Shown one piece after another: positions 535-64,000 of a stretch of 64,000 bases of DNA (positions are counted from its first letter, which is position 1; each line of letters starts with the position of its first letter). The notes under the pieces were generated by a model. That model searched no databases, was not told where the DNA came from, and saw nothing but the letters and a program-made list of their open reading frames with translations. Both the position numbers and the translations under genes were made by a program. The DNA comes from Apoderus coryli (taxonomy: Eukaryota > Arthropoda > Insecta > Coleoptera > Attelabidae): the NCBI GenBank assembly GCA_911728435.2, contig OU452205.1, forward strand, positions 12,964,260 through 13,028,259. The letters run 5' to 3'.

Positions 535-805
535 TTCCGGCCATCGTTTGTGAACTGTGTTTCACTGGACATATTGCCTGCTCACACTAGATGTCGCTAA
601 AACATTTTGTTGTCTTTCAACTCTCGTGATAAGCTCTTCGTAAATGTTGGACATTTGGGTCACACGTCACACTGCCTGCCGATCATCACTGATGAGTTGT
701 GTATCAACGAAACGGCCCGTCTGGTGAAATCATGGTAGTGTGAAACAAATGTCCAACAGAACTTAAAGTCTTGTTACATTATGTAACAAGCAATTCATTA
801 TATTT
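535..805 (+). mobile_element. retrozyme-like insertion (hammerhead-bearing repeat unit)
   Basis: About 270 bp that is present in this copy of the THAP-type element and absent at the homologous sites near 14720 and 63835. Its left part (CCGGCCATCGTTTGTGAAC, then a block ending in ACTAGATGTCGC) matches the tandem units at 56112-56707 and, inverted, 52791-52900. Its right half is the hammerhead ribozyme at 645-758. Short AT-rich similarity at the two edges (ATATATTT and TATATTTTT) may be a target duplication. No protein is encoded, as expected for a retrozyme mobilised in trans. Confidence 0.65.
645..758 (+). ncRNA. hammerhead ribozyme, type I, complete core
   Basis: The core is CTGATGA (689-695), stem II GTTG/CAAC (696-699 with 705-708) closing a 5-nt loop, GAAA (709-712), and a short stem III (712-714 with 718-720). 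C721 is the predicted cleavage nucleotide. Stem I inner helix is TCATCA (683-688) with TGGTGA (722-727). A 6/6 internal loop follows (677-682 and 728-733). The outer helix pairs 668-676 with 734-742, and a further 13-bp perfect helix pairs 645-657 with 746-758. Every invariant core base is present, so self-cleavage is expected from known hammerhead rules. It could only be inactive through unseen folding problems. Confidence 0.88.
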
Positions 806-13672: not shown

Positions 13673-14631
13673 TCTTTTATTTGAAACTGACACTCCACTT
13701 TGATGATGGATAATTTATTTCGTTTGAGATAATAAATTTATTATTTATTCTTGTGATACGGTTGATTAGGACGCGCTATTGTAGGTATAAGGTTAATACA
13801 AAAATTTGCACTGGTTATATTCAATGCTATCAACGATTTCTTTAAATAAATAAAACGAATCAAATTCAATGTCAACTCCACAAATGTTTTTCAGGCAAAT
13901 CAACTTTAACAGCCAGTAAATACAATTTCTGGCCTAACCCGTCATCAGTCATGTATAAACTTGTAAGAAATCAAAATATCTGAAATTCGCAGAAGTTAAA
14001 AAAAGAATAATATAATATGTAAGTAAAAAATAATAAATCACACAATTAACCACTTTATGTTATGGACAAAAATTGCAAGACAAACGAATAAGTACCTATG
14101 AATAGTTTTGTTAATATTATGTGTTTATTTTCGTGAAAATAGAATATACCATACAAGAAATAGACAACTAAAGTTATACAATTATTTTAGATTTATTTTC
14201 AATTAATGGTGTCACAAAAATTAGTGCATTCAATTTGAAGTAATATTCTAATTTGTTTACAATAAAACGCGGTAAATTTTTATTGTTGAAAACTCTTTAA
14301 AAAATTTTGGAGGAGCCGCAAAGCCTATATTACTAGAGTAAAACCAGTAACGCAAATGAAGATAATCTAATACTTAATTTAATTATTTTCATGTATCTAC
14401 GAGTATTCAAAGATCGAGAGAACACCGTTTCTATAGAATTAGGAATGAAATACTTCGCTATATATTTTTTAACATTCATTATGACATTTAAAACTCAACT
14501 GAAGATTTTGACGTTTTCGGACTTTCTGAAAACATTCATTTTTTTAATAAAAACTGCTATGAACTTCTAACTTTTTTCGCCCTACCTAGCGGGCATGACG
14601 ATCATACTAATGACACAGCATTAATAAGTAC

Positions 14632-15790
14632 AGCATTCCGTCTCCACGTTCGCACTTTGAAAAAAAGTGTGACGTAAGATGCCGCCATTTTGGGTTACAA
14701 AACAGGTCCTGACTAAGAATAATTATAGTTTTTGGTTTCTAACCACAGTACTGTATTTTTATTTTTGTAAAAATATTTAAGTACATAATAATATCGCTGT
14801 CAATTTCAGAAATATTTGTGGTGTGTCATAGTGATTGAAAACAACCTTGAGTGGTGTTATCAGTTAAATGTTGACATGATTGGGTGATTTTTAATAACAA
14901 TAATAATAAACACAACAATAATAAAGATTTTATTAGTAAAAAAGACATTTTTACAAAAGTTGTTATTGTCAAAAAAGAATTAAGATTGTCAGATTTTTGA
15001 TTAGTTTTCAATTTCTATATTATATTGGTCAGTTAAAATCGTTTCAGTTTTGTATTTAGTTTGTTATTTTTCTTTATTAATAAATCGCGTTTATTTCAAT
15101 TTTCGTGGTTTATTATGAATATCGTTGTAGTTTAATTCACAAATTACAACAACAGCAGCTAGGGGTAGTTTAATTCACAAATTACAACAACAGCAACTTT
15201 AAAGGCAAATTTTGGCAAAGACTTCTTGAAACTTTATAATGATATTGTCAATAAAATAACAACTAGCCACGCGACAACTTGTGTTTATGTTTCACTTGTA
15301 TTTAGTTTAATAACATATTAGATACTGTCATTTCGTAATATAAATTTTACGGTTTTACAAATAGTTGTTATAAACGTAAAATTATCTAGTATTTATCTTA
15401 ATTTTTACTTATTACTCACCTAACAGGATCTTTGGGGAAGCGAAAAAAATGTTTAGAGCAAGTGTACCGCTTATTGGGACAACATTTTGCAACACACACA
15501 TGTCTTCCGTGATTATTCATTGTATGAATCCCAAGACACGTTAATAAAAATAAAATCCTTTTAATTCTCACGAACACTATACCAAAAACACAAAACACAG
15601 ATTTAGATTTTAAACACAATATTTATTTATCTCGTACACGCCGACAATGAACTATATATTGAACACAGTAGTGAACTGTATCTATCTACGTCAATGCGAT
15701 TATTTTGACGTTGTAACCCATAATGGCGGCATGCGCGACGATATGCGCAGGACGGCTTGCAAACGTGAAAGACAGAATACTGTATTATTT
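14632..15790 (-). mobile_element. THAP-type DNA transposon, copy 2
   Basis: The left end TACAGCATTCCGTCTCCACG is mirrored, imperfectly, by the right end around 15755-15783 (inverse TACAGTATTCTGTCTTTCACG). Inside, on the - strand, is a THAP zinc-finger exon (15520-15420). The - strand lead sequence at 15740-15620 matches the tails of the tandem retrozyme-like units at about 56331-56740, so the two families share sequence. Left-hand blocks match copy 1 (431-1690) and copy 3 (63728-64000). A THAP finger plus inverted ends suggests a P-element-related family. Confidence 0.6.
15420..15520 (-). pseudogene. THAP zinc-finger exon of a P-like transposase
   Basis: Starting at the ATG at 15520, the first residues include HVCVAKCCPNKRY and CSKHFFRFPKDPVR. 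This is the N-terminal half of a THAP domain: the paired Cys, then the Phe-Pro dipeptide before a basic run. The frame stops at a clean donor (AG|GTGAGT, with GT at 15419-15418), as expected for an exon. THAP domains bind the ends of P elements and are also found in host regulators. No downstream transposase exon is visible, so this looks like an orphan exon of a deleted element. Confidence 0.65.
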
Positions 15791-32500: not shown

Positions 32501-35500
32501 TAATTTTCTGTTGTATTTGCAGACATTTAACATTTAATTATTTAAGGTTACTTTGATTGTAATGTAATTTTCGTTTTTGCGGTTCTATTATAATTATTAC
32601 CATATTTTCGATCAAGATTTTCCATGTCCATATATCTAACAATAAAATACAGGCCAAGAAAATCTACTCAAATTGCTAGTTAGAGCTATGCACTTGTTAT
32701 CCAAAATACGTAAAACCTGCTATCATTTCTCAAATACTAATCGAATATTCGACATTATTTTCTAGAAATTCAAAAATACGTATATCTTAAACTGCTTAAA
32801 TATGAACAGCAAAAAATATATTTTCGTTTCATAATAAGACAATCAATAACTCCATATGACCTTACTTTTATAATTTTCATTTCAGTTAGTTAATTATTAC
32901 CATTTTAAAGAATCATCCCCAGAATTCTTTAATGTAGATCTAAAAAGGTTGATTGAACTGGCATATGATCAGGTCATAAGTGTTCCACCATATCTGGATC
33001 AAAATGGACGAAGGATTCTCATTTTTAGGATGGGTAAGTTTACTACTTCCAAGCATTTACGGTTTGCTCCACAAATAAATGTTGGTGATATTGATATTAT
33101 AGTGAATCCATGTTCGATAGAAAATCTCATAGGGTAGAGGACTTCAAAAAACAGAAACTTCAAATGAAGTGATTTGAAGTTTCTGTATTTTGAAGTCCTC
33201 TACCCTATGAGATTTTCTATCGAATTATATTGAATGATTTTGTCTAAAATATATTTTTGAAAACATTTTCTTTAAATAAATAAATAAATAAGCGTTTATT
33301 GCCCAACAGAATAAATCCCTTTACAGAGCAACATATAAAACAACATTATAAATAATAAACAATAATAAAGATAATAAATCACATTACAGCAAATTAAGTA
33401 CATCCAAATCAAACAAACTAAAATCAATCATAATCAAGAAACTAAACGGTATAATATTGAATAAAATAACAAATTAAATTCAGATGTAGACATTTACTTT
33501 CATTACATTATATTACTATTACATTAACATTAGATCACACCCTAACAAAACTACGAGCAGTGTGCATTAAGTCGTGCAGCGAAGAATTAAATATGTCGCA
33601 ATCGTTACAGATCATATTAAAATTATTGCACATCACAAAAACTGGCGATTTCGTGTATAGATTAGTAACAGGACGTTTGCAGTAAAACAATCCGTTACGA
33701 CTCCTCGCCGTTAAATTATTTTTTAGTTTTTTACAGGAGAGAAAAATCTCCGAATCAGTAATGTCAGTTACATTGACAGCAGAAAAGGGAACTCTATCAC
33801 CGTTTACAACGGATATGGAATCATTCGGTTTCAGAAATACACTTTCAAAGAACTCAGCAAATCTGTCAACAATAGCCTGAGGCTCAACATGTTCAACACC
33901 ATGAAAAGACATAATGTCCGGTATTCTAGTACTATTATTTTTGGCGTGAAAATATGACCAGAAGTGTTTTGGATCCTGCAATAAACTATTTTGCACCCCA
34001 TCTATGTAATTAGAATATGCAACTCTGATATCCAGGTTCAACTGTCTACGTAGTCTCTTGAAATGTTGCAAAAAGTCCGCATTACCTGTTCTCCTAACTT
34101 TCTAAGCTGCCTTTCTTTTCTTTTTATATTGCGAAGAATCTCAGACGTAAACCAGACTGGAAATCTACGCTTAAAATTTCTATCTTTCCTGTGAACCTTA
34201 TAATTTGATGAAAATAATTCTTCATCCTTGACATTGGAGTGCAACCAGGTCTCAGTCAGAGGAATGATCTGATGCTCAGCATCGCTAATCGCTGTAGTGG
34301 ATATGTCAATTTTTGTGTTGAGTCCTCGTACATTCTGATATATACAAGATATGTCGCCCATAATTTCAGTACTATTACTTGAGTTTAAGACGTCTGAACA
34401 GACTGTTGGGCTGTCCGAAGGTTTTTTGATCTATAATTTACGATCCTGGGTTCGCCATCAATGTAATTTATTTTAAGATCTGACGCAGGATAGTTGTCAC
34501 TATCTCAGGAGAGTTCAGAAGGACTTTTATCGGACGTTGTTTTCCCGGAGATGTTTTGCCAAAGTTTAACGCTACTAATATTTGTCATAGAGTCGCTTGA
34601 AATCGCTTTAAGCAGACCAAGGACTCCCTCCTGATCAGAACCATCGCGCTCAGATACTCCAAACACGATTATATTTTTGTTCCTCCTCTCGCGGTCAAGT
34701 AATTCGTTAAGGACTTCCCGTGATTCGGCTGAAGCTTCCCCCGCCGATGACTGTGCGCCTTCCGTCCTCTGTGCCAATTTTAGTTTTATATCTGCCAACT
34801 CGCCACTCAAACTTTTGTTAACTTCAAGCTGTTCGTTATATTTTTCATGCATATCATCATACATCCTCTCGAATACCATCAACTTCATAACATCATTGAT
34901 TGTATAGTCTTTATTAATCCTAACTGTGTGGGAGGATGTAGCTGAAGCAGCAGCGCCCCCCTCCGTAGCACTCTCAGACGAGTCCTCCCGCAAGCGACCA
35001 GGAATCCCCACACTACGATGATCGCGCGAACTCCGCTGTTTTTCTAGGCACTTTTCACATGCCCACTTAACGTTATTTTGTGGACAAAAACAAAATACTT
35101 CTTAAGAGGGGCGTTTGAATAACATCGCTTGCAGACCTATTTTTGCGCATGGTAGACTCCACTAATACGTATCTGGTAGCAAAAATTTTGATAGGGAGTT
35201 AAAGAGTAAAGATGGGATTAGGTATTGAAGTATTTTGAAGTTGAAATATTGGATAGTTAGTTCAAAAACAGAGTTAGAAAATCATCATATTTCGCTTTGC
35301 AGGCATAATTTTGCGCATGGTAGTCGCCACTAAGACGTATCTGCTAGCAAAAATTTTCATAGGGTTTTAAAGACAAAAGATGGAATTAGGTAATGAAGTA
35401 TTTTCAAGCGGAAAGATTAAATAGTTAACTCATAAATTGAGTTCAAACATGGGTAATTTTTTCATATTTACAGATATATTTTTGTGGATGGAAATCTCCA

Positions 35501-38500
35501 CTAATACGTATCTGGTAGCAAAAATTTTAATAGGGTTTTAAAGACTAAGGTTTGGATTAGGTAATAAGGTATTTTGAGGCTACAACAATAAATAATTACT
35601 TAATAAATTGAGTTCAAAGTCAGCAACGTTTTCCTCATTTTGTGCTATGATTCTAATATTTAATAATGATAATATTACTTTATTACGTTATTTACATATT
35701 TAACAATCACTTGTAATTAAAATTGTACGTGAAAACTTTCTGTATTAGACAATATCCATATTTAAAAAAATCCCTCATATTTCCCTTCAAATATCCGCCA
35801 TTTTCTTATAATTTTTTTATAAATGTAGGCAACAAACATATAATGCGTAGTTGGGACAGTATTGAAGAGATGGCGCTGTTTATACACAGTGAGACAAAAA
35901 TCTAATGGTTTTGTCGTACTTATATTATTAATATTTAGTTGTATGTGGTATAGTATATTATGTATATGCGTATGTACTAGGAGTAGGGATTATTAACTTT
36001 AGCCATGTACAGTAATATCAGAGAATAAATAAACATCTATGGTAATATTAGGTATGTAGGTATACCTACTGTTAGAGGATAAATATAATAAGGAATAAAG
36101 TAGTTACGAGTAGTTTGTTACGTTAGTTTATTGGAAATAATACAATTATAATAATTATTAAAATTCTGTTTCGTTACGCAGGTCATATATTTTTGATTTT
36201 ATTATAACTAGTCGGGAAAGTTTTGGGGTGACACAACTGATTTTTTATGATCTATAAAGAGATTACAAGAACTCCCGACTGGTAGTTATTATAAAATTAT
36301 AAGATACCCTTGGTGGGGGTTTAAATAGCGTTTAAAATTTCACCAATTAGGTAGTTGGAACGTATATACAGGGTTATTCACGCCTTACTACACGGAATAC
36401 TGTGGCTAAACTATTTAATTTATTCATGGGTTCGATAAAAATGATTTAGGGCTACATTTTAAAAATATTGTGAGTCTATACAGGGTGTCCCAAATATAAG
36501 AACTTAACCATAGTTGTGTTTTTTAAATGGAATGCCCTGTATATGAATACATTTTTAGATTCCCCGTTCAAAATAAACCTAACTTTCATTAAAGCACATC
36601 TTACCTAAACCTGACAGTTTTTTAAATATTTAAATTTTAATAAAAATATAGACATAATTTGACTGAAAAAATTCACACCTATTTGTTTATTCTTTTTAAG
36701 CCAGTCTAGGCATCATCACTTGTTACGCCAAATATAAAAAAATCCCCAATACTAAATACAGGATGTCCAATAATATAACTTATATGAATGTAAAGTTTAA
36801 TTCTAAATAACTTGTTTATTTCAAATGGAACACCTGGTATATGAGGTAAAAATTAGATGCACAGAGTAATTCTCTGTCAAATATTATAATACTTTCCTAT
36901 GTTACTCTTGACGTTTTCGTGGAAAATGCACATATTCATAATATTATGCGAATTTTTAATTGAACCTGTTAATTTCATGTAGACCATCCTGTATTTGATG
37001 ATGATGAAATGAATTATCTATTGATCACTATAAGGTTTTCCTATAGATATGTCTATTTTTTTAATGTATGGAAAAAGCACATATTTGTAGTAATAGGAAG
37101 AATTTTTTAAAATTATATTTGTCATGTCGGCCATGAGAATTTGACAAACCATAATTTAAACAATAACATAATAAATAAATACATTTTTCACTTAAGTTAA
37201 ATAACAACATATACCTACATAAAAACTGATAAATTTTATAATAAATGTTCAAAATGATTGGACTCTAGGCACATATGAATCCTTTTCTTAAATCCTTCAA
37301 CAACTTTAACCTGGTGTAACGCTTCTAAACGCTTTATTTATTTGGTTCTTCATCTCCTCTATTAAAAAAGTTTTCATTTGCGATGATTTTGTTCCTCGCC
37401 CATGTACAAAATTCAACACGATTTAAAATCAATATTGAAAAGTTCTTGATGCAGTTGCATTGTGTTTCGGTGGTATCTTTCGTTAAACTGCCTTAACAGT
37501 CTCTCGAAGACCGCTTTTTTGGGGTGATTTTGCGCGAGGAGCCTTTGAGCGTAAACTCGCGATGCCAGTAAAGCGTTTTTGGACCATTCTCCCAGAATAA
37601 AAATCATGTCTATTCTTTCTCCTTTGGAATAGGTTCTCATTTTTGAATTGAATTAAATCAAATGTCACAGATAAAAAACTGTTTTCTGAAAAATTCTCAA
37701 CTCTTAAGTAAGAATTTTCAACAGACTATTTGACAGTAAATATCAAATTAAAAAAATTTATTCTATCTTCTCAAATTCTCATGGCTGACTTGATAAATAT
37801 TATATTTTTGAAAATTCTTCCTCTTATTGCCAATATGTGTGCCTCTTCCATGCAAAATTAAAGATGAGTATACATATCTATAAGAAAACTTTAATTTAAC
37901 TTTAATTTTTGCATCATCAAATACATGGTGGTCTACATTCTATTCTACTTCCAAGTATTATAATATTTGACAGATAATTACTTTATGCATCTAATTTTGA
38001 CCTCATATACTGGGTGTTCCATTTGAAATAAACAAGTTATTTAGAATTAAGCTTTACGTTCATTTAAATTATATTATTGGACACCCTGTAGTATTGCGGG
38101 TTTTTTATATTTGGCGTAACAAGTGATGAGTGGGTATATTTATCAGCCCAGACTGGCTTAAAAAGAACAAACAAATAGGTGTGAATTTGTTCATTCATAT
38201 TATGTCTATATTTTTATAAAAATTTAAATATTTAAAAAACTGTCAGGTTTAGGTGAGATGTACTTTAATGAAAGTTAGGTTTATTTTGAACGGGGAATCT
38301 CAAAAATATATTCATATACAGGGCATTCCATTTAAAAAAAACACAACTATGGTTCATTTCTTATATTTGGGACAACCTGTATAGACTCACAATACCTAAT
38401 ACCCTACTTAATTTTTAAAATTTTTACTGTTAAAATAATCACTGTACCAATCGTAAATCAAATAGATAGGTACTATGTTAAACCGCATATTAAACTAAAA

Positions 38501-52300: not shown

Positions 52301-55300
52301 TGGAACACCCAGTATACGTTAACATTCTCTTGTAAGGCGTGGTATTCTCTTTCCGAATTTACATACCATTTACATAAAATTTTATATCCAGTTTTATGAC
52401 TTCAAGTAGGCAAGTGAACCATTTTAACAGTTGCGGGAATGAAATGTGTTTTGAAATATAACAAAAGTTTCATACAAAAATAATCCTTTAAATGTATATT
52501 TTTTCTTTGCTCTGCTGTGTGCTTTTTTATAATAAAATTATGTGATCACTCTATATAAAATTTTCATATAAAAAACCTAAGTATTAAATCTCATAGTGTG
52601 ATATGATATATGTTATGTATGATATAATTATAAATAGATTCCAGATGTTTTTCTATTTATTATAATTTTCGCTGACTAAATAGAGCACTGTATGATTTTG
52701 ATTATGTAACTTCGCACTATAAGTTTGTAAAATAAAATAAAGTTGGTAAGTTTTTAGAAAAAATTTTCAACTACAAATAAACCTAATTATAAGACAACAA
52801 GATGTTTTTTGCGAGATCTAGTGTGAGCAGGCAATATGCCCGGTGAAACAAAGTTCAAAAACAATGGCTGGACGAGAAGCAACAACTCCATCATATGTAC
52901 AAGGATGTGTTTGGTGACATCTAGTTTTCGTTGGTAATACAACAATTCACTATACGACTGCTTGGGAGCTCACTGACCCCATAAAGCACAACTACCAACA
53001 CATAGATGCGTCGATACTCCCTTTAGCGGGACGCCTATATTAGAAATGGGCTTGTTTAACAAAACAAGACTTAATTCCAAGAGTTTGTCAACCACTATAC
53101 TTTCACCAGACAGCCGTTTCGTCGACTCATCAGTGGTGATCGGTCAGTAGTTGACAGCCAAACTCTTGTAAATACTGTGGTATATACCCCAGACGGTACA
53201 GAGATGTAAAAGGATGTGTTTTGGCGACATCTAGTTTTCGTTGGTAATACGCCGAGCGAACAACAATTCACTATATCGACTGCTTGGGAATACAGCCGTT
53301 AAGTTTGGTGGTAAATGATTATACATTCTGCGACTGTCATTAAGGAGTGATTTCTTTAATAGGGCAGATCTCGGTACAGGCAAGTGCACCCGCTGAAATA
53401 GTCTCGTGGGATAAGGGTGACTAGGTGGAGCTGAGCTGTTAATGTTTCTTACATTTCTATGAATAAGACATACAGTGTCTAAAATGAAAAGTGATGTAAG
53501 AGTCAATAATCGATGTTTTTTGAATAATTCTCTACAGCTTACAGTAAAATCTGCTTTAACATATAACGAACAGCTCGCTTCTGCAGTGTAAATATACTCT
53601 TAAGCAAAGTTTGGGCAGAAGTTCCATATCGAAGAAAAATACACATTTCTTGCAACTTTCAGCCCAAGAGCCCCTGATACAACTCTCAAAGCATAACAGC
53701 CAGATGAAACTTTCTTGCATAACAGTTTAACATGCTCATCAAACTTAAACTTTAAATCAATTTGGAGTCCCAAAAAAATTAACACAATTAGGACTATTAA
53801 TAGGGTTATTTTCAAATAGCAAATCATAAAATTTAAAATATTATGTGTTTTTGATAAATTAATCGCACCATTCCTTTATCTTTACCAAATCATTTCTTTA
53901 ACAACATGCACTTTATTGTAGAAATTATGGCATGTTTGCTGATCAAATCGGAATATAAATAAAATCATTTAGATGTTTTATAGAACGTACGCACCTTTTT
54001 AACACCGTAGACACCGCGTTTGAATAAATCTGTCAGATCGTTCGAAAGGGTCCTTGATGCCAATATTTGCTGAAACAAATGCACATTACATTGGAGATGA
54101 ATTTAAGAATATCTAATTTACCTCAACATAAAATTGTTTCTTCTCATCTGGTACAAATTGTAGAAAAACAGCTGCAAAATCATTCCTTTTTTGTTCCAAG
54201 CATTTCATTACAATTGGCTCAAAGTCTAAAAGATTTACTACTGGACAAGTCTGGAAGATAATCAAAGTGATTAAAAAATTACTATTAAAAACACTTTACT
54301 GTTACATACCTGAATTATCAGACAATTATTGATATAATGCTCATACAAATCACTTGGATGGTCTTTGAACACACTGTTAATTATCACTTGCCAAGCATTT
54401 ACATAGAATTCTTTCAGACATTTGTTTTTCAACAGATCCACATAGAGTCTTAACTCAGTTATCTGCAATAAAACTTATATTAGTGAATTTTAAGTGAAGA
54501 AAGCTATAATATTGTGGTCTATTATAAAAAAATTGAAACACAACACTTTAAAAAGAAAAGAAAGGTACTACACATTTACGTATTTAATTTTTGTGATGTA
54601 TAAAGAAAAAAAAATGAAATGCCATGTTTTATAGTGTATTCTTGTTTTTGTAGCTTGAAAAAGAGGAAATTAAACCTCGAAACGTTGCTGACTTTAACAT
54701 AAAGTGTTGAAACTTTATTTCGTCCTTTTACCCACGAGCTCCACAGTAAAAAATATATATCTACAGGACACGAAACATTAAAAAGTAATATACCTATTTT
54801 TGAATTGAAAATGACTTTAAATTTAACAATAAAAAATCCAGGACCGTATTTAAAAAACGAAGTTAATGATGGTTTTTCTAAAACGAAACGTCGCAGTGAA
54901 AATTTGTAAACGCTATCTTATCATCAAAAAGTAACAATGAGAAAGTGCTTGTAATTTTCATATATATGTAAAAATAATGTCAGAAATAAATAAAAACTAA
55001 AATCGCAAAAAATTGTTTTTCCAAAAATTCTCGAAAACGGCTGAAGTTAGTTTAATTTTCAAAATACCATTTAAAAGGTGTTTAAATTGTACGACTTTTC
55101 TCTAATTTAACCTACATTGTAACTGCTACCGTTTCCAAGATTCCAATGCTATCCTATTCTTATCTTGGACACGTATATCAGTCATTTATTGACGGATTTC
55201 AAAAAAAAATTTCACCAATCTATTAGATTTTGTCTATATATTGTATAAATATAAAAACAAATATTATCATCACTATCAAACTTCTCCATTAGACAATACT

Positions 55301-58300
55301 GTCGACTTTGCTATATTACTGTTATGTAAAGAATAAAGAAGTTGCTTAAATAATGTTTTTGATAGCTTTAAAAACAACTTTATAACAAAGTAAAAACAAA
55401 TACCTCACTATCCTTCTAACTTACCATATCGAATTTGATAGCATTATTGATGATAAACTCCCAATAACGCAAATCATCAATATCATATTCCATACAAAGA
55501 GATGCCATAATTTTAATACTAATCGGATTCACAACCTTACACAATCGCTTTAAAAGTTCTTTCTTATTACAAGATTCCAATTCATTTACAGTTAGAACAA
55601 TACCCAATCGTTCCAAGTCACTTAAAATTGTGAGTTTATCTATAAAATTCCTACGAAATCAAACAGAAATAAATATATTTATACATGTTATAGAAATCAG
55701 TAATATACTTACAATAACTCGGTGACAGAACCCTCAGTTTTCTCTTCAATCAATGCAGTATCAGAAATAGCGTAAAATACTTTTAGACAGTTGGCTTTAA
55801 ACAAATAGCTCTGCTCTTCCAAATTTAAAATAGTCGTATTTGTAGTATCAATATTAATGGAATTACCGGTTTCTAATAAATAATGTTGCCAAAATTCCAA
55901 ATTCTCACCGTTGGCACAAAAGTAAGCAGCTCTAAATCAAAAAGATACATCATTTGTAAAACATATTAAGCAAGCGTCATGGCTTGGGTTGAGATTCGAC
56001 AGTATGATATACAAAAAGTTTTTGACAACAAGATGTTTGTGGCGAAATCGAGTGTGAGCAAGCAGTATTGCCGACTAAAGCCTCCCGTATCTAGTCTTGG
56101 CAATAGGATTTAATGGAGTTGTTACTTCTTGTCTGGCCATCGTTTGTGAACTTTGTTTCACCGGGCATATTGCCTGCTCACACTAGATGTCGCCACAAAC
56201 ATCTTGTTGTCATTCGGTATCTTGTGCTAGTATAAGCTCATCGTAAATGTTGGAAATTTGAATCACATTGCCTGCTGATCACCACTGGAGTTGTGGATCA
56301 CCGGAACGGCCCGTATGGTGAAAGCATCTCGTCTCGCATGCCGCCATTATAGGATAAAACGTGACAATAACAGCATAGACGTAGGTAGATACCGTTGACT
56401 CGTGTGTTTAATGGAGTTGTTACTTCTTGTCCGGCCATCGTTTGTGAACTTTGTTTTACCGGGCATATTGCCTGCTCACACTAGATGTCGCCACAAACAT
56501 CTTGTTGTCATTCGGTATCTTGTGCTAGTATAAGCTCATCGTAAATGTTGGAAATTTGAATCACATTGCCTGCTGATCACCACTGATGAGTTGTGGATCA
56601 CCGGAACGGCCCGTATGATGAAAGCATCTCGTCGCGCATGCCGCCATTATAGGATAAAACGTGACAATAATAGCATAGACGTAGGTAGATACCGTTCACT
56701 CGTGTGTTCAGTATAGAGTTCATGGCCGGCGCGGCGTATACGAGATAAGTTTAATACTGTCGCATTTTAATTATGGCGATGTTATATATGGTCCTTGTTT
56801 GACCAAAATTGATGAGAACAGAATTCAGTTGATGCAGAATTCATGCACACGGTTTGTATGTGGAATTCGTAGGGGTGAAAGTAGCATTAGAGCTAAGATT
56901 AAGGAAATCGGCTGGTTAAGAATTAAACAACGAGGGATCTTTCATTATCTAAGTTTGTTTAATAAGTTTGTTTAATAAATATCGTTTGAATCATCATCTA
57001 TCGAGGTTAGGCCTTTTGGAAAATTCCAAATGCCGATTGTGTCTGGAGGAAGATGAGACGGCGGAACATGTACATATTCGTTTCAAGTCAAAAATGAACC
57101 GTCACATTTGTAAAATAGACATACCTTTTTAAATTATCGTTGTTACCAAGGTAGCTAGTTTTCTGAAATGCCGAAAAATTTCCTCCAAATCTTGATGTAT
57201 CTAAATCCATTCTTGTGTTCAAGTCGTTTAACCAACCTCTAAGTGTTTCAAAACGAATTTTTTGAATATCTAGTACGAACAATGCTGCTAGATCTTCAAC
57301 AGCTTTATTAATATCTAAAAATCAATAATTAGAGTTCCTACCTTGGTAGGTCGTTATCTAGACTAATACTGCAAAATTTTCTAAATCTGTTGAATCATTA
57401 CCTGGACAAGAAAAGTCTATTCCATGAGCACTCTTCAATATCCTTTCATCTAAATACAAAGCATTTATAAGTTCATGAGGAGCAGCTACTAATTTCGTAT
57501 ATCTTTCATCAGCTAATTGATGAACGTGGAGCACATGAGTTGCTGCTAAGTTGTAATACTGTTGCTTAACCTGAAACCAATTAAAATTCGAGCAACTCTG
57601 ACGACATTATTTATTAATTTACTTGCCTAACAGGTTTTCACCCAATTACAAGACAATTCAATAAATAAATTTTAATCAAAACACTTTTTTCCAAATTACA
57701 GTAGTTTCAAAAACTTTCACAAAATGTGTTTAATTTATGAAGAAATAAGACACCAGTTCACTTTTGATTGTTGTTTGATGTAAAGTAAAAAAGCTGTTTC
57801 TCGGTGCAAAAATGTCGTTAACTGATACTGAAAGAATTTACAATTCTTATGATGAGAGGATACGGCGACAGGGTCAGGTCGTACGAGAGATTAAAAATGA
57901 CGGCTTCCGAAACCGAAATGCGATTGCAAAAGTTGGAAATTGTAGAGTTAGACCACGATCAGGACGACCAAAAATAAATGAAGATAAAGATTTGGGCATT
58001 TTGCAAAATTTTGTTGAAAGCTCGTGTTCCTCATCAAGAACAATATCTCAAGTTACTGAGGTCTGCTTCAAAACCGTGCATAATGTTTTGATAATAGATG
58101 GCAATGCAAGTTGTCCGATTTTAAAATAATTACTACGTTGAGGTGACAAATAGACAACAACCACACATATCCAGTTATCATACTCAACGCTTTCTTATTT
58201 TATCCTGTGATGAGTTGCACGTTACATATTGTGTCCATTGCGTTTTTGTTACTACCTTGCAAAATGGATGAAATAAACTCCGACGACAGTATTAGTGACC

Positions 58301-58888: not shown

Positions 58889-59473
58889 CTACAACAAATA
58901 TGAGCACAGAGTAATTATATGAATTCGCAAGTCTTTGTGAATTTGCTTTACACGTGTTCATAATAGTCCTAAAAATGGGGCACTATAAGGTGATCAATTA
59001 TTGTTTGTGTTTGTCAGATGCTTCCAGAATTTTGTTGTTTTAGGTATAATACAAATGGCAAATTCTCGTCAGAATAATGCAGTTTTAATTGAGTATTTGT
59101 AGGCCAATGCTTACAAGCGAAATTAATCTGACAGTGGCAGAAAAGTCTTGTTGACGTGATTTTTGATAGTTGTATGGTTAAGCTGCCTTTTTTGCGAGAA
59201 AGATTTCGACATTTGGTTATTTGGGTATTGAAAGATTTGAAGGTGTGAATGTGTGTGAATTTTGAAGTGCTAGTATTTTTAACTGCGTACGCGAAATCAA
59301 TAAAATAAATAATTTGGTGCCAGAACATAGACAAAAGCTTTTAATAGCCCGTTATTATTATACTAAAATGTGAATATTCACATATTATAACTACTATCAA
59401 TTTATTACTTTTGAATTTACAACATTCGATCGGTTTCGTAACAATTTTAACAATTTTAACAATATATATATAT
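58889..59473. other. Rod intron, no recognised exon
   Basis: A 106-codon - strand frame (59334-59014) has no family match and poor codon character. An (AT)n stretch closes the region at 59461-59475. Confidence 0.4.
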
Positions 59474-60171
59474 ATAAACAAACAAAGCTATTCAACTAAG
59501 TTGACAGAGTATAGTATATCACCGATATACAAAGAAAAATGAAATAAACTAACTTGTACGAATCAAAAAAATCCCGTGACACAAGCTGGATTTGAACCAA
59601 CATCTCCCAATTGCCGGTCAGGTGTTTTAACCAATTAAACTATCGTGGCACATGAATGAAACTTCTTTAATTCGTACATGCCTTGCTTCCTATGTGCTGT
59701 GCTACGCCTCGACCTTTTAATTCAAAGGCAACATAGACTACACACTGCCATAATGCAATGTTATTTCTCTTTTGCTCATCGCAAATAAATATAAATAAAC
59801 AAACAAAGATATTCAACTAAGTTGACAGAGTATAGTATATCACCGATATACAAAGAAAAATGAAATAAACTAACTTGTACGAATCAAAAAAATCCCGTGA
59901 CACAAGCTGGATTTGAACCAACATCTCCCAATTGCCGGTCAGGTGTTTTAACCAATTAAACTATCGTGGCACATGAATGAAACTTCTTTAATTCGTACAT
60001 GCCTTGCTTCCTATGTGCTGTGCTACGCCTCGACCTTTTAATTCAAAGGCAACATAGACTACACACTGCCATAATGCAATGTTATTTCTCTTTTACTCAT
60101 CGCAAATAAATATAAATAAACAAACAAAGATATTCAACTAAGTTGACAGAGTATAGTATATCACCGATATA
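59474..60171 (-). repeat. tandem 321-bp repeat with tRNA-like gene, left array
   Basis: TTCAACTAAG recurs at 59491, 59812 and 60133, an exact 321-bp period. Copies are almost identical. Each unit has a tRNA-like gene on the - strand (59576-59651 and 59897-59972 including flanking pairs). The third unit is interrupted by a mariner at 60172 and resumes at 61477. Confidence 0.9.
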
Positions 60172-61474
60172 ATGGGTGTTTTTTTAAGCTAGATAGAACT
60201 TTAAATTGTAAAAAGTAACACAAAAAATTAAATTTTGATGAAACATTTTTTTTTTTGTTTTAGTATACTCTGACAAATCATCATGAATAGACTCACGCTT
60301 GAACAACGCTACGAAATTATCCAAATTTACTTTGAAAATCAGTCGTCGATTCGCGCAACTTATAGACGACTTCGTCATTATTATGGCGTACATAATCGTC
60401 CATCTGAACAAGCCATTCGTCGAACTGTGGATAGATTTCGTACCACATACTCTCTAGAGGATGCAATAACACCAACACGTCAAAGGAATGTGCGTACTGA
60501 AGAGAATATTGCCGCTGTAAACGAAAGTGTGGAAGAAGATCCAAATTTATCGATTCGTCGTCGGTCGCAGGAATTGGGGCTCTGTCCGTCCACTACGTGG
60601 ACAATTTTGCGCAAAGATCTCGGCCTACACCCGTATAAGATCCAGCTGGTGCAGGAATTGAAGCCACGAGACCATAATATGCGTCGTTCTTTCGCCGATT
60701 GGGCTCTAGAGCAGTTGGCAACTGACCCGTTGTTTTATCGCAAAATTGTGTTCAGCGATGAGGCGCATTTTTGGCTTAACGGGTTTGTTAATAAGCAAAA
60801 TTGCCGCATATGGAGTGAGACCAATCCACAAGAGACCCTACAGACTCCATTACATCCAGAAAAATGCACCGTTTGGTGCGGTTTTCACGCTGGTGGCATC
60901 ATCGGACCTTATTTCTTCAAAAATGAGGCCGGAGCTCGCGTTACGGTCAATGGAGATCGTTACCGCACCATGATCAATGATTTTTTGTTTGAAAATATGG
61001 ATGACATTGATCCGGAGGAGATGTGGTTTCAACAGGATGGCGCTACGTGCCATACGGCGAACGCAACCATCGACTTATTGAAATCAAAATTTGGCGATAA
61101 GTTGATTTCGAGAAATGGACCTGTCAATTGGCCTCCAAGGTCGTGCGATTTGACACCTCTCGATTATTTCCTGTGGGGCTACTTGAAGTCACTGGTTTAT
61201 GCTGATAAACCAGCAACAATTGACGCCTTGGAGGCCAGCATTGTTCGTGTTATTCGTGACATAAGGCCAGCAGTGCTCGAAAAGGTGGCCCAAAATTGGA
61301 CGTCCAGAATGCGCTTCGTCAAGAACAGCCGCGGTGCCCATATGCCCGAAATCATTTTCAAATGTTAATGTCACGTATTGATCTTTCGAATAAAAAAAAA
61401 TGTTTCATCAAAATTTAATTTTTTGTGTTACTTTTTACAATTTAAAGTTCTATCTAGCTTAAAAAAACACCCTT
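60172..61474 (+). mobile_element. intact DD41D (rosa-like) mariner element
   Basis: Terminal inverted repeats of about 83 bp (GGGTGTTTTTTTAAGCTAGA at 60174 and its inverse ending at about 61472) are flanked by TA on both sides (60170-60171 and 61475-61476). Joining the flanks at the TA restores the 321-bp unit exactly, so the insertion is recent and its ends are certain. It carries one uninterrupted transposase gene. Confidence 0.92.
60283..61368 (+). CDS. DD41D mariner transposase, apparently intact
   Basis: 361 aa, the usual length for Tc1/mariner transposases. It cuts and pastes its own element at TA sites in the nucleus. The paired HTH region spans residues about 5-50 (LTLEQRYEIIQIYF) and 87-120 (SIRRRSQELGLCPSTTW). 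The catalytic Asp residues are D159 (VFSDEAHFWLNGF), D252 (FQQDGATCHTA) and D294 (SCDLTPLDYFLWG). There are 41 residues between the last two, as in the rosa/DD41D group and unlike DD34D mariners. WCGFHAGGIIGPYFF lies between D159 and D252. The start at 60283 is the first ATG after the left repeat, and the stop lies 18 bp before the right repeat. There are no internal stops or frameshifts. The older relic at 3983-4686 has the same motif set. Confidence 0.95.
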   Translation: MNRLTLEQRYEIIQIYFENQSSIRATYRRLRHYYGVHNRPSEQAIRRTVDRFRTTYSLEDAITPTRQRNVRTEENIAAVNESVEEDPNLSIRRRSQELGLCPSTTWTILRKDLGLHPYKIQLVQELKPRDHNMRRSFADWALEQLATDPLFYRKIVFSDEAHFWLNGFVNKQNCRIWSETNPQETLQTPLHPEKCTVWCGFHAGGIIGPYFFKNEAGARVTVNGDRYRTMINDFLFENMDDIDPEEMWFQQDGATCHTANATIDLLKSKFGDKLISRNGPVNWPPRSCDLTPLDYFLWGYLKSLVYADKPATIDALEASIVRVIRDIRPAVLEKVAQNWTSRMRFVKNSRGAHMPEIIFKC

Positions 61475-61476
61475 TA

Positions 61477-61693
61477 CAAAGAAAAATGAAATAAACTAAC
61501 TTGTACGAATCAAAAAAATCCCGTGACACAAGCTGGATTTGAACCAACATCTCCCAATTGCCGGTCAGGTGTTTTAACCAATTAAACTATCGTGGCACAT
61601 GAATGAAACTTCTTTAATTCGTACATGCCTTGCTTCCTATGTGCTGTGCTACGCCTCGACCTTTTAATTCAAAGGCAACATAGACTACACACT
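61477..61693 (-). repeat. third unit of the left array, after the mariner
   Basis: Continues the unit broken at 60171. It includes a tRNA-like gene on the - strand (61523-61598 with flanking pairs). It stops at CACACT (61693), about 58 bp short of a full unit, where the array flips orientation. Confidence 0.9.
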
Positions 61694-62931
61694 TTGTTTG
61701 TTTATTTATATTTATTTGCGATGAGCAAAAGAGAAATAACATTGCATTATGGCAGTGTGTAGTCTATGTTGCCTTTGAATTAAAAGGTCGAGGCGTAGCA
61801 CAGCACATAGGAAGCAAGGCATGTACGAATTAAAGAAGTTTCATTCATGTGCCACGATAGTTTAATTGGTTAAAACACCTGACCGGCAATTGGGAGATGT
61901 TGGTTCAAATCCAGCTTGTGTCACGGGATTTTTTTGATTCGTACAAGTTAGTTTATTTCATTTTTCTTTGTATATCGGTGATATACTATACTCTGTCAAC
62001 TTAGTTGAATATCTTTGTTTGTTTATTTATATTTATTTGCGATGAGCAAAAGAGAAATAACATTGCATTATGGCAGTGTGTAGTCTATGTTGCCTTTGAA
62101 TTAAAAGGTCGAGGCGTAGCACAGCACATAGGAAGCAAGGCATGTACGAATTAAAGAAGTTTCATTCATGTGCCACGATAGTTTAATTGGTTAAAACACC
62201 TGACCGGCAATTGGGAGATGTTGGTTCAAATCCAGCTTGTGTCACGGGATTTTTTTGATTCGTACAAGTTAGTTTATTTCATTTTTCTTTGTATATCGGT
62301 GATATACTATACTCTGTCAACTTAGTTGAATATCTTTGTTTGTTTATTTATATTTATTTGCGATGAGCAAAAGAGAAATAACATTGCATTATGGCAGTGT
62401 GTAGTCTATGTTGCCTTTGAATTAAAAGGTCGAGGCGTAGCACAGCACATAGGAAGCAAGGCATGTACGAATTAAAGAAGTTTCATTCATGTGCCACGAT
62501 AGTTTAATTGGTTAAAACACCTGACCGGCAATTGGGAGATGTTGGTTCAAATCCAACTTGTGTCACGGGATTTTTTTGATTCGTACAAGTTAGTTTATTT
62601 CATTTTTCTTTGTATATCGGTGATATACTATACTCTGTCAACTTAGTTGAATATCTTTGTTTGTTTATTTATATTTATTTGCGATGAGCAAAAGAGAAAT
62701 AACATTGCATTATGGCAGTGTGTAGTCTATGTTGCCTTTGAATTAAAAGGTCGAGGCGTAGCACAGCACATAGGAAGCAAGGCATGTACGAATTAAAGAA
62801 GTTTCATTCATGTGCCACGATAGTTTAATTGGTTAAAACACCTGACCGGCAATTGGGAGATGTTGGTTCAAATCCAGCTTGTGTCACGGGATTTTTTTGA
62901 TTCGTACAAGTTAGTTTATTTCATTTTTCTT

Positions 62932-62933
<2 letters not shown>
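61694..62933 (+). repeat. tandem 321-bp repeat with tRNA-like gene, right (inverted) array
   Basis: Four units in the orientation opposite to the left array. tRNA-like starts at 61851, 62172, 62493 and 62814 are exactly 321 bp apart. The units are nearly identical to each other and to the left array, differing by single bases such as AACTTG for AGCTTG near 62557. The array ends in (TA)n. Confidence 0.92.
61851..61923 (+). tRNA. tRNA-like gene (anticodon GGC), one of seven copies
   Basis: Folds as a 73-nt cloverleaf: acceptor GCCACGA/TTGTGTC (one C-T mismatch, one G-U), D stem GTTT/AAAC, anticodon stem CCTGA/TTGGG with loop CCGGCAA, T stem GTTGG/CCAGC. The A box TAGTTTAATTGG and B box GGTTCAAATCC are intact, and TTTTTTT (61929-61935) follows five bases later as a Pol III terminator. 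Position 33 is C and not the universal U, and the Ala-specific G3-U70 pair is absent. A translating tRNA-Ala is therefore unlikely. Other copies: + at 62172, 62493 and 62814; - within 59576-59651, 59897-59972 and 61523-61598. Confidence 0.5.

Positions 62934-62989
<56 letters not shown>
62934..62989. repeat. (TA)n microsatellite
   Basis: About 27 uninterrupted TA units directly abut the last 321-bp unit. A shorter (AT)n run marks the left end of the left array (59461-59475). Confidence 0.95.
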
Positions 62990-62993
<4 letters not shown>

Positions 62994-63727: not shown

Positions 63728-64000
63728 CAGCATTAATAAGTACAGCATTCCGTCTCCACGTTCGCACTTTGAAAAAAAGTGTGACGTAAGATGCCGCCAT
63801 TTTGGGTTACAAAACAGGTCCTGACTAAGAATAATTATAGTTTTTGGTTTCTAACCACAGTACTGTATTTTTATTTTTGTAAAAATATTTAAGTACATAA
63901 TAATATCGCTGTCCATTTCAGAAATATTTGTGGTGTGTCATAGTGATTGAAAACAACCTTGAGTGGTGTTATCAGTTAAATGTTGATGATTGGGTGATTT
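63728..64000. mobile_element. THAP-type DNA transposon, copy 3 (cut by window end)
   Basis: From GCATTAATAAGTACAGCATTCC onward it is almost identical to 14620-14900, including the uninterrupted site where copy 1 carries the retrozyme-like insert. It continues past 64000. Confidence 0.8.

Follow-up and report, generated by a model that had tools for sequence, protein, structure and literature searches.

Animal retrozymes without long terminal repeats (non-LTR retrozymes) are tandem units of 150–450 bp with a type I hammerhead ribozyme, a low GC content, target duplications of more than 4 bp, a self-paired unit and a short stem III (Cervera and de la Pena 2020, PMC7229834). Type I hammerhead satellites of newts and salamanders, as described in the same paper, have tandem units of about 330–350 bp and a weak stem III with a palindromic loop. 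Plant retrozymes, also hammerhead units thought to move as circles, have type III hammerheads, long terminal repeats (LTRs), primer binding sites and polypurine tracts (PBS/PPT) and 4-bp duplications (PMC7229834). The enzyme that moves animal retrozymes is an open question in the available review text. A review of 2020 states that their repeats hold no conserved motif helping to deduce the autonomous partner, and names Penelope elements as likely candidates, as both have type I hammerheads and co-occur (PMC7761336). Penelope insertions are built of partial tandems with an inverted part joined head to head; they may carry a tail at one end and show 8–10-bp duplications (PMC3846280). The Penelope enzyme of Anolis cuts and extends both strands, uses two adjacent starts inside the RNA and prefers AT-rich targets (PMC11167929). 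Here, a hammerhead repeat of the beetle Apoderus coryli is analysed, starting from a DNA stretch of 64,000 nt (contig OU452205.1, positions 12,964,260–13,028,259; the window). By its sequence features, the repeat is assigned to the metazoan non-LTR retrozymes, a known kind of element, with thousands of copies in this genome of 428 Mb on 129 contigs. Its insertions have two fixed 3′ ends, named R and L, which are paired in head-to-head arrays.

The hammerhead under study, copy B, had been noted from the letters alone as a complete hammerhead at 53078–53168 with cleavage at C53109, without a strand. It is present and lies on the minus strand. The core and inner stem I (53139–53103) score 30.7 bits against the hammerhead model RF00163 (E 2.4e-5 within 1.2 kb), which is under the gathering score of 34, and the predicted cut after C53109 agrees with the earlier position. 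Copy A, on the plus strand (hammerhead at 675–735), reaches 26.2 bits in a 126-base stretch (match 683–727), also under the gathering score, with a predicted cut after C721. A scan of the whole window with RF00163 at the gathering score listed neither copy, and an 801-base scan by E-value missed copy A. The sequence has the CUGAUGA...GAAA core, H17, three stems and the opening at stem I of a type I hammerhead, at bit scores below the gathering score. Within the window the exact core CTGATGAG..CGAAAC is found in copies A and B only, with 0 expected; comparison of the two also bore out the common inner loop xxCCGA/AAxxAT. Our own model R1, built from four window copies including copy B, gives copy B 64.5 bits and recovers these four copies in the window with nothing further up to E 10. 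Folding energies are below those of dinucleotide shuffles (z −5.85 for B and −4.49 for A).

The family extends over the whole genome. A core pattern, CACTGATGAG-N(2-20)-CGAAACGGC, has 2,880 exact matches (1,432 + 1,448); the reversed pattern as control has 0. The family was not found in viral contigs or bacterial and archaeal genomes, where nine stretches matched in one pattern search and none was confirmed. Units are arranged in tandem and head-to-head arrays and are of two types with the same core, inner-loop pattern and layout. Based on one unit each, type A has 336 bp and 44.3% GC (locus L064) and type B 331 bp and 45.6% GC (L004). Taking the R end as the origin, the core begins near position 229 and the cut is near 260. 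As circles, both units fold below mononucleotide shuffles (z −5.3 and −6.0). Array anatomy was studied in 42 arrays from the first 40 clusters in order, none skipped, among 100 listed places, all on the contig labelled C1. This sample required an intact core, so that inserts from cut linear monomers are invisible and long arms are favoured. Together with L001, L003, L004 and the window, the 40 stretches provide 65 hammerheads; L003 and L004 were fetched for a separate reason and stand outside the sample. The results below hold within these sampled copies. Stem III is weak, with the palindromic loop ACGGCCGU in 52 of the 65. Units of 331–336 bp in tandem, a GC content of 44–46%, a type I hammerhead and long target duplications, all within the ranges described for metazoan non-LTR retrozymes (150–450 bp, GC below 50%, duplications above 4 bp), make the family similar to these elements. 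Self-pairing of the unit and a short stem III are further points of agreement. Unit length and stem III also resemble the amphibian satellites. The plant elements differ by their type III hammerheads, LTRs, PBS/PPT and short duplications.

Stem I provided evidence for the RNA fold. The sequence-only reading had claimed that the outer helices of copy B differ in sequence from those at 645–758, still pair perfectly and thereby point to selection or recent activity on the fold. Copy B has an extended stem I of 6 + 10 + 9 pairs, all formed, with a 4-nt bulge (53078–53168, minus strand), and copy A one of 6 + 10 + 13 pairs (645–758, plus strand). In both, the inner helix has 6/6 and the middle helix 10/10 pairs, G-U allowed; the outer helices have 9/9 and 13/13. 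Between the two copies, five of the ten middle pairs are changed on both sides, two on one side, three are equal and none is broken. Crossing the A arms with the B arms leaves 12 of 20 pairs. The same is seen between A-type and B-type units, in which 7 of 16 stem I pairs differ, 5 of them on both sides and none broken.

Typing by the middle helix assigned 54 of the 65 hammerheads; among the 11 others, several are truncated at the arm junction. A covariation set of 32 rows was formed from type A or B copies with at least 6 of 10 middle pairs, identical rows being dropped; this choice favours middle-helix pairing, not the choice of pairing letters. In this set 95.2% of 727 cells are paired, as against 22–50% when the partners are slid. 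Cells with a double change number 64 versus 25.6 in shuffles, and none of 500 shuffles reaches 64. The covariation score is 0.273 versus 0.150. Counted by pairs, 6 of 23 have a double change, without excess over shuffles (398 of 500 reach 6), and the four window copies alone have no covariation excess. Five of the six double-change pairs represent the A/B type difference, and thus few events. Pair 3 of stem II is a further one, with CG in 21, TA in 8 and CA in 1 of 30 A-type rows (22 CG, 6 UA and 1 other in the 32-row set). Selection on the hammerhead fold is supported by the pairing and the excess of double changes. A point against it comes from comparison within types. Of the cells that depart from the consensus of their type, 11 of 22 (A) and 4 of 4 (B) have a broken pair, as counted in those rows in which both arms are nearly paired (24 of type A, 20 of type B). 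The proposal that differences breaking pairs as often as they keep them would refute selection was checked on copies of this genome; no pair is broken between types, breaks occur within types, and the reading stays supported. Breaking within types is expected from copies decaying after insertion, and selection would then act on the replicating elements and not on each inserted copy.

Stem II of copy B is indeed only GTCGAC (core 53116–53133, minus strand), as noted earlier, but its description as a minimal form is misleading. The common stem II is GTCGTGGATCGAC, present in 44 of 65 hammerheads, and copy B lacks 7 nt that are found in most sister copies. Loss of one TCG repeat of a pair, together with the intervening bases, leaves GTCGAC. 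Four of the 65 hammerheads have this stem (three of type B and L001), and among the 2,880 pattern matches it occurs in three (window, L003 and L004), the GTCGAC core of L001 falling outside the pattern. In L003 and L004 the short and long forms stand side by side in one array, and the three B-type cases sit apart in a tree, support values not considered. The reading of GTCGAC as a natural 'minizyme' or dimer was dropped for these reasons: rarity, proximity to the long form and separate tree positions. Copy B is probably a deletion derivative, and it is probably poorly active because of the stem II deletion. A separate case is L001:1433–1576, an intact core with GTCGAC and unrelated arms that appear unpaired by eye, a distant or dead relative.

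Among 59 outward 3′ ends of the 42 arrays, 32 are at R, 19 at L (window: unit 145–170) and 8 elsewhere; 14.7% would be expected in the R and L windows, which cover that share of the unit and were placed after the ends had been seen. The R position is just past a tail hairpin, downstream of the hammerhead. Going round the circle from R, the L position is reached after about 157 nt and lies upstream of the hammerhead. All 17 two-ended arrays are head to head, 15 of them with R at one side and L at the other, one with R/R (L041) and one with L and another end (L067). The odd end of L067 reads ...AAGCAATTCT and, by eye, could represent an R end reached after a jump. With L067 omitted, a pairing of R with L in 15 of 16 arrays has a probability of 1e-4 if ends were independent. 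Target duplications of 10–16 bp, AT-rich, flank 14 of the 17. L003 and L004 likewise have L and R ends, with duplications of 14 and 13 bp, respectively. Over all 42 arrays, exact flanking repeats of at least 10 bp occur in 19 and of at least 9 bp in 21; after exchange of the flanks, 0.5% reach at least 10 bp. The 21 duplications of at least 9 bp have 83% AT, versus 66.5% in the flanks. Borders fixed by duplications are sharp to several bases and read ...AAACAAGCCCATTTC and ...CGCCAAACACATCCTTTTA in type B and ...TAACAAGCAATTCT and ...AAACATCTCTCTCT in type A. Exceptions are few; the L end of L052, for example, is some bases further on. A-type L ends finish in a short CT repeat. One-ended arrays (n = 25) end at R in 15, at L in 3 and elsewhere in 7 cases. 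L040, one of the 15 R/L arrays, and L041 share an inner head-to-head junction (unit 214 to 113) and are not independent; the head-to-head copy itself may have been re-copied.

Arms and units provided information on the template. Of the 59 arms, 19 are longer than one unit. Units of one locus are on average 97.4% identical (94.5–100%; 18 loci, of which L046 and L049 each pool two arrays). Between loci, the mean is 92.7% for type A (249 pairs) and 93.7% for type B (120 pairs), with medians of 94.4% and 94.6%. L037, L051 and L064 have 100% identical units, L037 and L064 also across opposite arms. The 5′ arm ends are not enriched at the hammerhead cut: of 62, one lies within 3 nt of it, against an expectation of 1.3. 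Long arms, likeness within loci and the lack of a pile-up at the cut fit a circular template.

These observations can be arranged into a cycle, which is considered probable as a whole. Following published retrozymes, the units of about 331–336 nt would be transcribed, the hammerhead would cut multimers into monomers and a host ligase would close these into circles. A reverse transcriptase of another element may then nick both strands of AT-rich DNA and prime complementary DNA (cDNA) synthesis on each, starting at the R position on one strand and at the L position on the other. Synthesis over more than one round of the circle would leave tandem arms head to head between 10–16-bp duplications. 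Copy B is an L-ended arm of about 1.2 units. The paired fixed ends together with the duplications suggest priming of both target strands on an RNA, probably a circular one.

The insert anatomy resembles Penelope-type insertions, with head-to-head arms and alternative 3′ ends, one per side, in 15 of 17 two-ended arrays. Hammerheads and AT-rich targets are further common features. Here a distance of about 157 nt separates the two ends, which lie on either side of the hammerhead, whereas the two starts of the Anolis enzyme are adjacent. The duplications are longer, the unit encodes no protein, and its hammerhead has full stems I–III in contrast to the minimal ones of Penelope elements. Compared with the metazoan retrozymes of PMC7229834, two fixed 3′ ends and head-to-head arms are resolved; the text of that paper mentions insects once in passing, and a word search of it gave no inverted, head-to-head or priming. 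Paired fixed R and L ends are a new point for retrozymes, with no such report found in the accessible open-licence literature. A more specific proposal can be made tentatively. A dimer of a Penelope-like enzyme might insert animal retrozymes by holding one RNA circle and priming each nicked strand at its own fixed start, the two starts lying on opposite sides of the hammerhead and the full insertion being a head-to-head pair of rolling cDNA arms. If true, the partner that animal retrozymes lack would thereby be identified. The R/L signature bears on the question of the moving enzyme, and thousands of copies with resolvable borders in one genome make the two fixed ends and their pairing testable.

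Several points count against the proposed cycle. The Rfam scores of copies A and B stay below the cut-off. Their minimum-energy folds differ from the hammerhead fold in the core, with −47.2 versus −39.4 kcal/mol for A and −38.9 versus −23.5 kcal/mol for B (stems II and III of B kept minimal). Among the one-ended arrays, duplications of at least 9 bp are limited to 7 of 25. The R and L sites are weakly similar in sequence, and their interpretation as copies of one signal was dropped (8 of 286 windows for B and 63 of 291 for A score just as well). In the A circle most of the L site is unpaired, which does not hold for the B circle. The least alike loci, with 94.5–95.1% identity within, are no better than the between-locus medians, and transcripts of a homogeneous tandem array would also yield identical units. 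The results on cut ends and arm lengths are weakened by the intact-core sampling. Head-to-head copies of rotifer Penelope elements have been attributed to self-priming on an antisense template (PMC3846280). In the Anolis assay, insertion was independent of hammerhead cutting, and top and bottom strands had the same start site (PMC11167929).

Target-primed reverse transcription by a long interspersed nuclear element (LINE) with twin priming is an unlikely alternative source of the paired ends. Synthesis would begin from the 3′ end of the RNA (R) and the other target strand would anneal within that RNA (L), giving an inverted 5′ part. The topology of the insert and 10–16-bp duplications would be the same, LINE remnants adjoin copy B, and the short CT repeat at A-type L ends can be read as a LINE-like tail or an annealing site. 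Yet both of the diverged unit types have their internal end (19 of 59 ends) at a single place, and the arms longer than one unit are not expected of a linear unit-length RNA read once. The R ends whose exact borders were examined have no poly-A or simple repeat. It is highly improbable that the family consists of dead satellite repeats, formerly mobile and now decaying with DNA recombination only. The many damaged copies, among them two window copies with broken cores in a 298-bp tandem, would agree with this; the dispersal of inserts that have fixed ends and exact target duplications, and arrays of 100% identical units such as L064, do not. Hardly credible is a hammerhead within the 3′ untranslated region of a LINE whose frame upstream of copy B stays open to 97 nt before the core: the frame (53234–53599, minus strand, 122 aa) matches the C-terminal part of LINE proteins and extends into the unit, TAG and core are separated by 97 nt in B and by 98 nt in A, C1 and C2, and of the 8 sites at which the stub varies (A, C1, C2 and B3, counted manually) 6 are third codon positions, but in L003 and L004 the stub has a 1-nt shift (in L003 also an insertion) and is not open, no more than the final 59 nt of it are part of the unit by reading, and the unit recurs there, the two arrays checked, without the LINE frame. 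This reading, drawn from the 97–98-nt spacing, the third-codon differences and the tail common to A and B in the window, was dropped with the non-coding stub of L003 and L004. A protein search with the 122-aa frame gave nothing at E 0.001, and a LINE with a hammerhead was not seen described in the available text of PMC7229834 or PMC11167929.

The retrozyme copies of the window are of different completeness. Copy B belongs to a B-type array of about 1.2 units on the minus strand (52895–53289), whose sense 3′ end, at 52895, coincides with the L position (unit 158); the 5′ end, at 53289, is truncated (unit 75). No target duplication of this array was found by eye, and its other end is inside a LINE remnant. 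An A-type fragment on the minus strand abuts it (52793–52896; BLAST 52800–52896, unit 150 to 55; left edge by eye), also with the sense 3′ end at the L position. Insertion A is a simple R-ended insert within another repeat (537–798, plus strand; A-type unit 79–336, BLAST 536–796). It is flanked by the 7-bp target duplication TATATTT at 530–536 and 799–805 (plus strand), and insert-free sites of the host repeat are at about 14721 and 63833.

Locus C contains an inverted A-type arm (56022–56073, minus strand) that ends 3′ at the L position. Two A-type units on the plus strand come next, C1 (56086–56327) and C2 (56409–56627), and a piece of another repeat stands after each of them. Their hammerheads (56271–56329 and 56569–56629), not seen in the sequence-only reading, are broken. 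Both have CGGAAC in the core, a base change that harms hammerhead activity; C1 additionally lacks two core bases (CTG--GAG). The 3′ half of the long stem is missing in both, and they fold no better than shuffles. The two units share the CGGAAC change and were co-duplicated with the piece of the other repeat, at a spacing of 298 bp (56132–56627).

Other repeats accompany the retrozymes. The host of insertion A is one copy of a repeat family (about 14611–15790, 421–1672 and 63734–64000) with diverged terminal inverted repeats ATGCCGCCATTwTGGGTTACAA, pieces of which are also in locus C. A tandem repeat of 168 bp with 2.9 copies and 78% matches is located at 35132–35618. Within 59464–62993, a mariner-like transposase frame (60283–61368; DUF4817, some relatives named DD41D transposase) is flanked by inverted 321-bp tandem repeats with 99% identity over 708 bp. 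Seven tRNA-Ala(GGC)-like genes were found, six inside the 321-bp repeats and one outside at 61523–61596.
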